IMG/VR virus record: IMGVR_UViG_3300019487_000107
Location: 1-21,819 of that record
Source: a virus
Direction: 5' to 3' (one strand)
Length of the DNA stretch: 21,819 nucleotides
Position 1 is the stretch's first letter. Each line of letters starts with the position of its first letter. Made by a program: the position numbers and the translations under genes. Positions 3,338 through 16,299 of this stretch are shown here, piece after piece. The notes under the pieces are model-generated. The model searched no databases. It had not been told where the DNA came from and saw only the letters and a program-made list of their open reading frames with translations.

Positions 3338-6300
3338 TTAGACCTTTTCGTTGGTAGCGACCGTCGGCACGATGGCGAGCACGGTCGCTGGCCTTGGTGC
3401 CTTGGCCCGTAGATGCACGCGCGCGTCCGCATCCCACGCGCTCGGGAATGGGAACGCCACCTGATCGAACACGGGATGGATGGCGTCGGCGTCGACGACC
3501 GCGCCTTTGTCCATGCGCGGCAGCGCGTCGAGATGGCCGGAATCGGAGCCGAAGAAGAGACCGTTATTATGGGTCTGATGCAGGATGACGCCCATCTTGT
3601 CGACGCGCTTCATCTGAGTGAGTGCGGTTCCGGCTTCGGCCGCGTAGGCGAGTTTGGCGCTCCGCCAGTCGGCCGCGTAAGGGAGACCGCCAACGGCATG
3701 ATGCACGGCTTCCGAGAGCGTCACGGCGCCGCTGCCGGTGTCGACCGCATAGGTGGTCTGCACGCCGGCAGCGTCCGGAGACAAGTCCTTGCCGTGGCCA
3801 ACCGAGCCCGTGTCATCGGCCCAGAGGATGATGTTTTTGCCGATGAGATGCTGAAAGCCGGTGAGCGCCGTGGTGCGGCCCGTATCCGTGTAGCTCTTGG
3901 CGCAATCGGCGAGCCACGTGAGACCCGTATCGCCAACGCACTCGGATTCCATAGCCCACTTCTCGAGATAGCGGACAGTGGCTGGGGCGTAGGCATAGGA
4001 CTGCGGCGTGAAGTTCGACGTCCAGCGCGCTACCGTCGAGATGCGGAACTCGTCGATGAGCCCGTTCCAGGTCTTGATCGTGACCTCGCCGCGTCGGCCT
4101 ATCGAGAACGCACTAGAACTGTCGTTGACGGTGCCGGATACGGCGACGTCAACGCCCTCCTGCACGCCATCTACGAACAGCTTGAGCACGTTGCCGGTAC
4201 GGACGAAGGCCACGTGGTGCCAGCCGGCCGCCGTGAACGTGGTGGTGCCAGTGACGGCGTAGGTGGTGACGTTCGTGGACGCGGACACCTGCACGGCATT
4301 GCCGGTGGTGAGAAAAATGCCAATGCTGGAGTTCGTGAGGGTGCCGCCGCCATCGACCTGGCCGCAGATGTAGCGTTCGGTACCATCGCCGCCCTGGCGG
4401 TTGAACCAGCAATCGATCGTCCAGTCGCCTGAGCCTAACGTAAAGACATCGTCGTCGGCGTGCGAAAGATAATCGCCCGTCCCGTCGCAGACGAGGGCGG
4501 CGGCACCGAACTTCGGCGCCACATCGTCATTGAATTTGGCGTTGCCGTGGGCCGTGAACACGAGCCTCGAAGCGGACGCATCGTTGCCGTTGCCATCCAT
4601 GTGCAGGAGAAGGACGGTATCGTCGTCGAGCCCGCGGGCGGCCATCTCGCGTTTTATGTGATAATAGACGGCATCCTCGCCCACACCCGGCAGCACCATG
4701 GCGCGCTCGACGACGCCGTCCGTCGACCATGTCGACCAGCACACGACGTCTTCCGCGGGCTCGTAGGTCAGGATTTTGACCGTACCGTCCGCCATGACGC
4801 AATGAAGCCGCGTATCGGGCTGGCGCTGGATGGCAACGGACACCACGCCGGCCTCAAGAAGATCCGGCACCAAAAGCGTGAGCTCGAAGGCTTCGTAGTC
4901 GGCGACCGCATTCTGCGACGGGCCGATCATGAAGGCGCGCTGGCGCGAGCGCTGGATCATGATGGCGCGCGTATCCATCTTGATGGCTCTGAGCGGAGCC
5001 GAGCCCAGCGTCGAGATATCGCTGGTCGAGGTGTTGTCGGGCGTCAGCGGCTCGTCGAGCGACGAGGAGCGGATCGAGATTTCCGAGCCCGACGTGCCGA
5101 CGATAAGCCGCAAGAGCGACACCATGAAATTGATGTTGTCGACGGGCCCAGAGCCGAAGGTGCGGATGATGGGTCCGGCGTCGCCCTCGACATCCTCATC
5201 GAAACTCTCGTAATCGTCTGAAACCGATAGAAACAGGCTTCCGCCTTGAGCGTGCGCCAAACGCCCGCCGTGGAGAACCGTTGCTGTCGGAAAGCCGCGA
5301 TTGTCGGACCAATAGCCTTCCTGCCAGTTGTCGGAGGGTCCAGTGTCGGAGAAGCGCTTCAGCACCTCGACCGCCACAGTCTGGTTGCTGACATAGTCGG
5401 TGACGCGGCAGATTCCAGTGACGCCGCCCCCCTTGTACGTGATGACGACTTGGGCCACGCCCGAGACGTAGGATGAAATCCGCGCCCTGTACCAGACCTT
5501 GAGATTGTCGTCCTGGTCGTTGATGGAGCGAGTGAAGGTCCCAGTGTCGCCGGTATAGCTCGAGGCCTTGGCGAGATTGGCCGACAGCGGTGCAAAGCCA
5601 AGATCGTCGCCGTCGATGGAACGCTCGATCTGCATGGTCCCAGCCCACGTGCCGGTCACGGTAAAGGTGATGGTCCGCTCGCTACTCCCGGTCTCGGCCC
5701 CGGTGTCGGAGATGCCAGCCACTTGGATGGCGTCGGTTTTGGCACCTACGTTGCCGAGGAACCACCTCCCGTTCTGGCCCTCGTGGAACAGGCGAAACAG
5801 AGCCCCGATGTGGCTGGCGGTAAAATAGGGAATGTCGGATGTCAGCGTCGTGTTGCCAAAGCGCTGGCTGACGTCGAGTTTGGCCGACGAGCTCGATGTG
5901 GCCAGAAACGGCCCATCGTCCGGCTCGTAATTGACCAGGGACCACGACCGTCCCGTGCCGCGCCGCTCGACCTTGCGCGGCCGGATGCCGGCACAGTCGA
6001 CATAGACCACATCGGCGGACTGATCATAGCGGATATTATCGAGATCGTCGGCCCCCCACGGCGCCGGAATCTCCACAACACCCGCAGCCCCGATCTCGAT
6101 GCTGCTCACGATGCGGTCGAGATCGGTGTCGGACTGCACGGTGATGTGGAAGTTCTGTTCCGGTACAAAGGCCAGGCTGTGATAACCGGTGCCGAGTTGG
6201 GTCTCGCGCACAAAATCGTCGTCGCCGCTCGATGACCCTACGCGCAAGGTCACAGGCCCGCGCGAGACGGTAATGGCCACGGAATGCTCGACGCCATAAT

Positions 6301-13764: not shown

Positions 13765-16299
13765 CTATCTCCTCTTCTTGGCGTTGGCGTAGGCAAGAAT
13801 GACTTTTGGCGGAGCGCGGCGTGTGAGCGCCCGCTTTACCGCCTGGTTACCGGGGGCAAGACACATCACGACGCCCTCGCCCCTGTCCGGCGAGCGGCCG
13901 ATGCGCTTCTTGATCTCTTCCTTGGACTCGATCTGGATGCCGTTGGGTTTCAGGATCCAGCGGAACGACGCCAGGTCCGCCTTGAGCTCGGCATCGTCGG
14001 ATGGGAGCGCGATGTGCGAGCCGCCTTCCTGGTTCGGATCGAGGGCTTCGCGCAGGCTCCAGATGTCGGCGGCGCGTTTGTTGACGAAGCGCAACTTGCC
14101 GTCGCGCGTGGTGCCCGATGATGGATCGAGCCCCATGTACGTGACCACGTCGATACCGTTGTCCTTGAGAGCAAGCGCGGCGTCGCCACCCCAGCCGCCG
14201 CCGAGATCGACCACGACCGGGCAATTGTCGCGGCGCACCTTGACCACGGCTGCCGCCGTGAGCCGTCCGTCCTTGTCCGCCTCTCGTGCCACATCAAGAC
14301 GCGCGAACCAACCGCCATAGCGCGGCGCGATGACCCGCTTATCCCCACCGCCAGGCGCCACGTCGATGGCCATGGCCGTCATGGCGTAGCCTTCGGGCGG
14401 GCGCTCGGTCCAACGCTGCTGAGCCGCCTCGATCCATGCCGTCGGGATCACCTGCCAATCGTCATCCTTGAGACCAACCGTGAAGTCGCCTTCGCGATAG
14501 ACGCGGCGCAACTCCTCGGGCAACGACTCGAGACGGTCGCCATAATCCGTGCGGGCAAGATCCGGATTGTCCTCGAGGCGGGAGCGGATGAAGGTTCGTG
14601 ACGTCGCGCGAACCATTTTGCCGCGCACGTCATGGGGACCGGGTCCATCGACTTCGACATCTTGCCCGTCAAGGGTGAGATACCAGCGCAGCTCCCCGTC
14701 CTCGGCCGGGTCTGGGTGGTTGGGATCGAGCCAAGCCGCCCATCTCTTGACGATCCACATGCCCTCGGCCGTGGTCGGCCCGTTGGTCGCGCCAATGATG
14801 CGGCAGCGCTGGTTCGGGTCAACCGACCGGTTCCAGGTATTGATGAAGACGTACTGGCTTTCGAGGAAGTCGGCGAGTTCGTCGTAGCAGTTCTTATTAA
14901 CAAACCCACCTTCTGTGATATAGTGTCGTACTTCTGCGATTTGCAGATCATAGACATCCAATTCACCGAGGGGCCGATAGGACAATGCCGCGAATTGTGC
15001 CGAACCAGATCCAGAGGCTTGACGAATTTCCTTCGTATAAGGGTGGCCGTACGTGTTTGGTGAACGGGTACGTTTTTGAATTCGCCCCCGCGCACGCGCT
15101 AGCCAATGGCTGGGGCTGGGTCGCTCAGCATCGTCTTGTAGGAGAAGACATCGTTGGCCGCCCACTCGTCGTATCGAAAAACCCAGGCACACGAGAAGAG
15201 GTGCACCATATCGACGGAAACCAGCTAAACAACGACCCCAAAAACCTACAGGTGCTAACGGCTCGGCAACACCGTACAATACACGCCCGTCAGCGAGCCG
15301 CCCAGCAACTGGCCTTACTGAATGACGAGAATGTTGCCGCGGCACTTGATGGACGCGATCTCCGCGAGGCTGCCAAAATACTAAGAACGAGTCGGCAGAC
15401 CCTATACCGCCGCTTTGCCCACCTGTTTGAGGATCGCATGCGTACGCGACCGAGCCGACATGACGATCCCAAAACCATGGAGCGCATACGGCCCTATGCA
15501 GAAAGCGACCGATTTTCGCTGCGCGAGACCGCGAAAGCCACAAAGATTTCTGCGATAACGATACTGAGTGCTTGTCGCCATTTCGGCGTGCCGTGGACTC
15601 ACAAATTCCGCCCAGGTCGACCGAGGAAATCCAAGAAACACCAGTCCACAGCGCATGCGTAGTCGACTGCCGCTGCCTCGCGATAACACGGCCCAACCAG
15701 TCCGTAGCAAGGACTTCAACGCACGGCTTCCTCTGGCTTGGATAAATCCTTTCGAGGCGACGAGGCCCCTCCAAGGTCGCCAGCATTTCGCCGACACATA
15801 GGGTCTCGATCGGCTTGTACGTTCCATCGGCTAATCTGACGCGAGTGCCCTTCGCGACGCAAATTAGATCGCGCGCCTTGCCCTTGAAGCGCTGCTTGTC
15901 GCGCTCGAGTTCGCAGCCTCGAAATTCGATCAGCTTGCCGTCAGGGCCGCGCCATGTCGGCGGGTTGCGGGTGAAGCCGTCATCGGACTTGAGCAACTCC
16001 AAAAGCGCGTCGCCGAGTTCCGCCGCGTCCTGGTTGATACGCCGCAGGATTCGCGCCCGCGTGTGCTCGTTGTATGCGAGGCCTACGAGTAGCTGAGACT
16101 TCCCCCCGCCGGCTTCCCCGCCGAATAGAAGCTCGTCGGCTTGCGAATAGTAGGCTTTGGTCTGCGGGCCTGGATTGGGCACAAACCGCATGGCGCCGCA
16201 TTCGGCCTCGGCCAAGGCCAGCGCCTGTTTTTTTTCCGGCTCAGGGAGTGCATCGAAAGCCCTGAGCAGCTCGGCGAAGGCCGAACTATCCAGTTGCAT
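13765..16299 (-). CDS. terL: Terminase large subunit precursor containing an intein
   Basis: Continuous frame with in-frame ATGs at 16362, 16314 and 16299; I prefer 16299, which overlaps the small-subunit stop by 14 bases, has AAGG upstream and starts '[15 protein letters not shown]'. Residue numbers here count from 16362 (865 residues). Walker A 'GGEAGGGKS' is at 81-89; Walker B is 'DLI' (165-167) then 'CYDELADF' (492-499), interrupted by a 324-residue intein (168-491). ATPase coupling motif 'RIIGATNGP' is at 521-529. The C-terminal RNase H-like nuclease has '[11 protein letters not shown]' (Asp 667) and '[13 protein letters not shown]' (Asp 719). After excision the protein has about 541 residues (520 from the preferred start), normal for TerL. 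It powers DNA translocation and cuts the genome at the portal. Splicing is needed because the ATPase motif is split. The middle of the intein is antisense to an HNH gene. Confidence 0.9.
14897..14924 (+). promoter_or_regulatory. Putative sigma-70 promoter for the antisense HNH gene
   Basis: -35 TTAACA (14897-14902; one mismatch to TTGACA), 16-base spacer, and -10 TATAGT (14919-14924; one mismatch to TATAAT) preceded by TGa, an extended -10. Transcription would begin near 14931, about 54 bases before the HNH start codon at 14985, where GAGGGG and AGGA provide ribosome-binding sequence. The promoter is embedded in the codons for the intein C-terminal blocks and runs against terminase transcription. 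Confidence 0.5.
14985..15662 (+). CDS. HNH homing endonuclease, antisense within the terL intein
   Basis: 225 residues from the ATG at 14985; the only plus-strand gene in the window. The HNH core is '[19 protein letters not shown]' followed by '[18 protein letters not shown]' and '[13 protein letters not shown]': the HH pair, the central Asn and the final His of the HNH_3-type nuclease are all present. The C-terminal half holds two helix-turn-helix-like segments, '[18 protein letters not shown]' (about 127-144) and '[19 protein letters not shown]' (about 174-192), then a basic tail '[10 protein letters not shown]'; these probably bind the target. The gene lies wholly inside the intein, from just before block F to block B; its stop codon overlaps the block B codons. 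It would cut intein-free terL alleles to promote spread of the intein. A separate promoter lies upstream. GC is lower than in the surrounding gene, consistent with separate origin. Confidence 0.9.
   Translation: MPRIVPNQIQRLDEFPSYKGGRTCLVNGYVFEFAPAHALANGWGWVAQHRLVGEDIVGRPLVVSKNPGTREEVHHIDGNQLNNDPKNLQVLTARQHRTIHARQRAAQQLALLNDENVAAALDGRDLREAAKILRTSRQTLYRRFAHLFEDRMRTRPSRHDDPKTMERIRPYAESDRFSLRETAKATKISAITILSACRHFGVPWTHKFRPGRPRKSKKHQSTAHA

Follow-up and report, generated by a model that had tools for sequence, protein, structure and literature searches.

The element that interrupts the terminase large subunit gene (terL) in the window, by which we mean the whole 21,819 nt (21.8 kb) virus record IMGVR_UViG_3300019487_000107 from IMG/VR, is very probably a mobile intein paired with a homing endonuclease that is encoded antisense to it and transcribed separately, a reading to which we give a probability of roughly 0.87. 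We observe an open frame, a fold, conservation and a family of like elements, and promoter use is indicated. A sequence-only reading of this DNA had claimed that the homing endonuclease of an intein is here encoded by a gene of its own on the other strand and expressed independently of the host gene, and this claim gains support from conservation across the family, from the open sense frame, from the structure models of both the intein and the HNH protein, and from a promoter-like element.

The structural genes of the window are encoded on the minus strand, and terL (13765-16299, minus strand; PHROG 979 / 2, terminase large subunit) is there a single continuous open frame encoding an 844 aa precursor, which is about 320 aa longer than its relatives. 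The surplus length lies in one block with intein motifs at either end, and this block corresponds to a 324 aa intein (14890-15861, minus strand) that begins with Cys1, ends with Asn324 and is followed by Cys+1. The insertion point is the Walker B motif of the terminase (LI/C-YDE, the slash marking the junction), a conserved site in an essential protein. The four splicing blocks that the sequence-only reading had placed on the minus strand inside terL could all be located by residue: block A, which begins CVAKGT (15832-15861), block B, STTHALW (15646-15666), block F (14917-14955) and block G, FVNKN/C (14887-14904). Two intein-free terL genes, L006 and L007, align without gaps across the window's junction, showing the insertion to be precise and in frame; at the +1 position these empty sites carry Ala or Gly in place of the Cys of the window. 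Splicing would leave a TerL of about 520 aa, or 57.9 kDa.

The residues expected of a splicing protein are well kept among the relatives of this intein. Cys1 is invariant in 32 sequences, as is the His of the block B TxxH motif, which in the window reads TTH; the terminal Asn is nearly invariant, and the +1 residue is C, S or T throughout the family. Block G has Lys as its penultimate residue (NKN), as against the usual His-Asn, both in the window and in most relatives. Pfam Hom_end_hint matches 30 of the 32 family inteins, the window itself weakly (E 0.038), and an intein_Cterm domain is matched by nine of the 32. The NCBIfam model NF038136, built for an intein-containing Rv2578c-family radical SAM protein, matches 26 of the 32, which hints at kinship with a mycobacterial intein.

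Structure prediction divides the intein into two ordered ends and a disordered middle. In the AlphaFold (AF2) model, the N-terminal splicing region with blocks A and B (intein residues 1-80; 15622-15861, minus strand), which also forms conserved alignment columns, has a pLDDT of 93-98. The C-terminal splicing region, comprising an HPYT segment and blocks F and G (roughly residues 270-324; 14890-15054, minus strand), has block means of 73-98, rising to 95-98 from residue 291 on, and its HPYT segment is kept in mini-inteins that have no HNH gene (L192, L201). Residues 135-265 fall to a pLDDT of about 40, so that the center of the intein, antisense to the HNH gene (15067-15459, minus strand), appears to be an open, disordered linker, in keeping with its low amino acid identity among relatives. 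The top Foldseek hits of the intein model are all inteins, PI-SceI, Prp8 and gp41-1 among them, with probability 1.00, and the ends, at a pLDDT above 93 in most blocks, are confidently modeled as a Hint fold. An in-frame endonuclease on the minus strand between blocks B and F would have spoken against the sequence-only reading; the sense strand between the splicing blocks gave no endonuclease domain match and a disordered model, and in this the element differs from a conventional large intein.

On the plus strand, opposite this linker, lies a 225 aa open reading frame (14985-15662, ATG to TAG) that matches Pfam HNH_3 (E 7e-8), HTH_28 (E 3e-5) and PHROG HNH families with E-values down to 7e-15. 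Its catalytic motif (15195-15284, plus strand; HNH_3 residues 71-96) includes H74, H75, N83, N87 and H96, which are invariant in 29 sequences. The motif is followed on the same strand by a first HTH-like segment (15324-15425; HTH_28 residues 118-142, model helices 114-147) and a second helical, HTH-like segment (15468-15584; model helices 162-200). The AF2 model has a mean pLDDT of 90.7 over the full length of the protein, and a Foldseek search of this model against the PDB returned no significant match. The protein thus joins a catalytic motif to a DNA-binding domain, as expected of an HNH homing endonuclease, and the domain matches and model helices bear out the earlier description of a full HNH gene with two HTH-like segments. 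That description had also placed the gene exactly between blocks B and F, and here it needs correction: the last codons and stop of the HNH gene (15660-15662) lie inside the codons of block B, and at its other end the first 20 codons run over the conserved HPYT segment (15034-15045) of the intein C-terminal domain, so the gene is slightly wider than was described.

The arrangement is not peculiar to the window. The sequence-only reading had proposed a search for other terL genes with an antisense HNH in the intein, and our scans of IMG/VR with the HNH protein and the intein blocks uncovered 45 or more distinct terL inteins (43 clusters at 90% identity and 21 at 50%) in which an intact HNH gene runs antisense, its phase relative to the terL frame never varying. 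The first four relatives of the HNH protein (L002-L005; 83 to 44% identical) are all encoded antisense to a terL intein inserted at this site, where the terL frame is open throughout, and a wider HNH scan added four more (L057-L060), such that every close HNH relative lies antisense in a terL intein. When we instead scanned with the N-terminal blocks of the intein, with no HNH required, we again recovered terL inteins with an antisense HNH or its remnant, with no change of phase among them, and a further scan added more. Two scans with other HNH subgroups, for which no intein was required, yielded 33 distinct antisense cases, and the N- and C-terminal splicing blocks were in one open frame in 33/33; the same scans returned two cases that were partial, and related HNH genes at 36 other loci, mostly lacking a long antisense frame. 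C-exteins from diverse members matched terminase large subunit families in 10/10 cases. The presence of the same arrangement in dozens of independent contigs, together with the ungapped alignment of the two intein-free terL genes across the junction, leads us to reject an assembly chimera, the artifact that the sequence-only reading had named as fatal to it.

All members of the family come from uncultured viruses. Searching 50,697 phage records by tblastn with the HNH protein, the intein N-blocks and several TerL proteins gave no antisense-HNH intein, nor did a tblastn search of plasmids with one intein N-block and one TerL. A genome collection scanned with the HNH alignment gave short HNH matches only, and a scan of 399 genomes of one phylum, which had no positive control and so shows little, gave no matching case. 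The antisense arrangement characterizes this family and is not general: four other inteins (L195, L196, L200, L208) have their HNH match on the sense strand, and the TerL inteins of the cultured phages GMA6 and CL131 are in-frame inserts with no HNH on the antisense strand. A second site does occur. In two nearly identical sequences the Walker A motif of another TerL family (GGNR/C...NHHN/SGKT) is interrupted by a different intein, which has an antisense HNH of its own in the same phase (intein-bearing terL at L298:2-2605 and L300:753-3362, both minus strand), and their sense frames opposite the HNH gene contain 0 stops against 7.6 and 6.8 expected. A second site of this kind suggests that the arrangement has either moved or originated more than once. 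The largest family member (L186:4001-5161) has a 387 aa intein and a 333 aa antisense ORF that extends past the usual HNH C-terminus with more helix-turn-helix-like repeats. Near the terL of the closest relative we recognized by eye an IS200/IS605 OrfB (TnpB)-like ORF (L002:6113-7249, minus strand) that is absent from the window.

An open frame opposite a gene could be fortuitous, and we therefore shuffled synonymous codons within each HNH gene, keeping its protein and codon usage, and counted stops on the opposite strand. Over 26 HNH genes (two decayed), the phase of the terL frame was expected to contain 177.6 stops and contained 0, while the other two phases gave 197 stops against 197.0 expected and 231 against 241.0. 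Sixteen further HNH genes gave 0 stops against 112.2 expected in the terL phase, bringing the pooled expectation over 42 genes to 290, again with 0 seen. None of 63 control HNH genes outside the family, mostly free-standing, was stop-free in that phase. Conservation of the HNH protein is evident as well. Between the window and L002 there are 30, 36 and 90 differences at HNH codon positions 1, 2 and 3, and the HNH proteins are 79% identical while the sense amino acids over the same stretch are 55% identical; over 242 pairs, mean identity is 0.41 for HNH and 0.20 for the sense frame. These biases indicate that the HNH protein is conserved, and that the middle of the sense frame is mainly kept free of stops. 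A chance antisense ORF is rejected by the HNH conservation and the stop test together, and selection acts on both strands, to different ends.

All neighbors of the HNH gene are transcribed in the opposite direction, and the gene would thus need its own promoter. A putative extended -10 sigma70-like promoter, TTAACA-16-TG-TATAGT (14897-14924, plus strand), sits inside the codons of blocks G and F at a position conserved in the family; the call is a consensus match. The conserved HYI of block F, when read in reverse, yields TATAAT or TATAGT if its Tyr is encoded by TAT, and TAT is the codon in 21/26 cases, where the codon usage of each terL itself would predict 10.6 (P 2.5e-5); in a second set it is used in 7/13, which is not significant (P 0.10). 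The antisense promoter score exceeds that of synonymous recodings of the same protein segment with a Z of 5.93 in the first set, from which the promoter idea was derived (n=29), and of 4.18 in the 16 later inteins that make up the second set. Controls gave a Z of -1.0 and -0.9 for the C-extein and a mild excess for the sense strand (1.3) and the intein N-blocks (2.2), and inteins that have lost their HNH gave 0.46. In three members (L144, L151, L276) the two hexamers both match the consensus and stand 16 bp apart, while in several others (L160, L194, L286) the promoter is weak or absent. A weak Shine-Dalgarno-like AGGA (14978-14981, plus strand) precedes the ATG of the HNH gene in the window, and such matches upstream of the HNH start are raised family-wide, at 57% against 17%, with some bias from picking the best start. 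An antisense promoter-like element, beyond what the protein needs, thus appears to be embedded in the codons that specify the conserved C-terminal blocks of the intein, and its use as a promoter is indicated.

The distribution of these inteins is sporadic, and intein-free terL genes are common (L006-L016 and others). Beyond the intact cases, two inteins have an HNH that is decayed or mostly deleted with an intact terL sense frame (L142, L145), and two 151 aa mini-inteins of the same family have no HNH (L192, L201). This fits a course of gain, endonuclease loss and retention of splicing. The mini-inteins could reflect an older form that the HNH invaded in reverse orientation, or they could equally be deletion products. 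These four elements (151-252 aa) are of use in their own right as natural small inteins. In some pairs the HNH and the intein are far more alike than the terminases that host them, as for L148 and L199, at 58% for HNH, 45% for the intein and 24% for TerL, and similar pairs exist; this fits what horizontal movement would give. Across the family, HNH identity tracks TerL identity (Mantel 0.63), which indicates that much of the inheritance is vertical.

Taken with what is known of inteins and HNH homing endonucleases, from which splicing, cutting and homing are inferred here, these features suggest how the element would work. On the sense strand, terL would be transcribed and translated straight through, and the two ends of the intein would fold into a Hint domain, excise themselves and rejoin TerL at the Walker B motif, the middle serving as a disordered tether of which only the absence of stop codons is required. 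On the antisense strand, the promoter hidden in the codons of the C-terminal blocks would drive a separate HNH-HTH endonuclease, which may cut terL near the Walker B codons in co-infecting phages whose allele lacks the intein, and repair of the cut terL would then copy intein and HNH together.

It is also conceivable, if improbable, that the HNH is an independent, free-standing homing endonuclease that landed in the intein and homes as a passenger on intein-containing alleles rather than serving as the intein's own enzyme. Phage HNH genes often move alone, and about half of the wider HNH relatives are free-standing (the 36 other loci above). A passenger of this kind sits poorly with the same phase and position in all 45 cases, with HNH ends that overlap intein blocks and a putative promoter embedded in intein codons, and with the correlation that we find between the identities of the HNH and of the splicing blocks. 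Less probable still, the intein could be split or dead, so that these phages would have a disrupted terL and, in the antisense HNH, a relic. The non-canonical penultimate Lys could be taken in this sense, as could the split RecA-type inteins with separate endonucleases in relatives (L158, L162, L166), but the frame is continuous in all cases, Cys1, TxxH and the terminal Asn are conserved, and on the HNH side the catalytic residues are conserved in 29 sequences and differences show a synonymous-site excess on the HNH strand. Removal of the element at the RNA level as a group I or II intron, the open frame being incidental, we reject as barely credible even though antisense endonuclease genes occur in some group I introns, since 14700-16100 has no Rfam match even at E <= 1, 0 stops are seen where 290 are expected, and both intein ends are modeled as a Hint fold; group I introns resemble the window in placing an endonuclease opposite the host gene strand, and differ as RNA-level elements that have no frame to keep open.

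Among known systems, the intein with a separately expressed antisense endonuclease has several partial parallels. Split inteins in fractured genes have a free-standing endonuclease gene between the N and C intein halves, and so share a separate endonuclease in that position, but their host gene is in two ORFs while that of the window family is continuous (33/33). We observe related configurations in passing: a RecA-like split intein (L158:3377-5437) has an HNH-like gene (4202-4900, minus strand) antisense between its halves, with an overlap onto the end of the N-half ORF; in L162 and L166 the halves of RecA-type split inteins instead flank GIY-YIG-like and Vsr-like genes in sense orientation, named by eye; and in three T4-like isolates (L180, L181, L183) the RecA/UvsX annotation is in two parts that flank a same-strand homing endonuclease, SegG-like in one isolate. 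The nearest published case is the ShiLan insertion, which keeps the host gene frame open, has a sporadic, homing-like distribution and encodes an HNH out of frame (in the third frame) on the same strand, with no intein splicing blocks found (PMC11855218). It has in common with the window family an HNH in a second frame of a frame-preserving insertion and a sporadic distribution. The window differs from ShiLan, with its same-strand HNH and no intein, in having an antisense HNH preceded by a promoter-like signal of its own and a complete Hint intein in the frame of the host gene. Phage TerL inteins were described by Kelley et al. 2016 in ATPase motifs, one of them in Walker B, with rapid splicing shown for five; that paper assigns endonuclease activity to a recognizable HEN domain inside the intein itself and makes no mention of an antisense gene (PMC5050341). 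Host gene and ATPase motif sites are thus alike, and the HEN within the intein contrasts with the antisense HNH of the window. An intein like this was not known to the sequence-only reading, and we likewise found no antisense endonuclease in an intein in the open-access literature.

We think it likely that these elements represent a widespread and undescribed class of phage intein in which both strands code, for splicing on one and homing on the other, with the HNH promoter and gene ends placed in splicing-block codons, and with one lineage occupying the Walker B motif of diverse TerL proteins and a second intein in Walker A. Inteins with an antisense HNH in terL are probably a large overlooked class, and a concrete one that gene finders have missed; the arrangement may explain ‘large’ inteins with no recognizable endonuclease. 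The overlap is long, deeply conserved and marked by a clean statistical signature, and it supports antisense coding as real in phages. The long disordered middle would make these inteins naturally insertion-tolerant splicing scaffolds. Large inteins normally carry their endonuclease in frame, and each spliced host protein then releases one endonuclease. Antisense coding uncouples the endonuclease from terL, which is a late gene, so that the endonuclease could be expressed early or at a low level.
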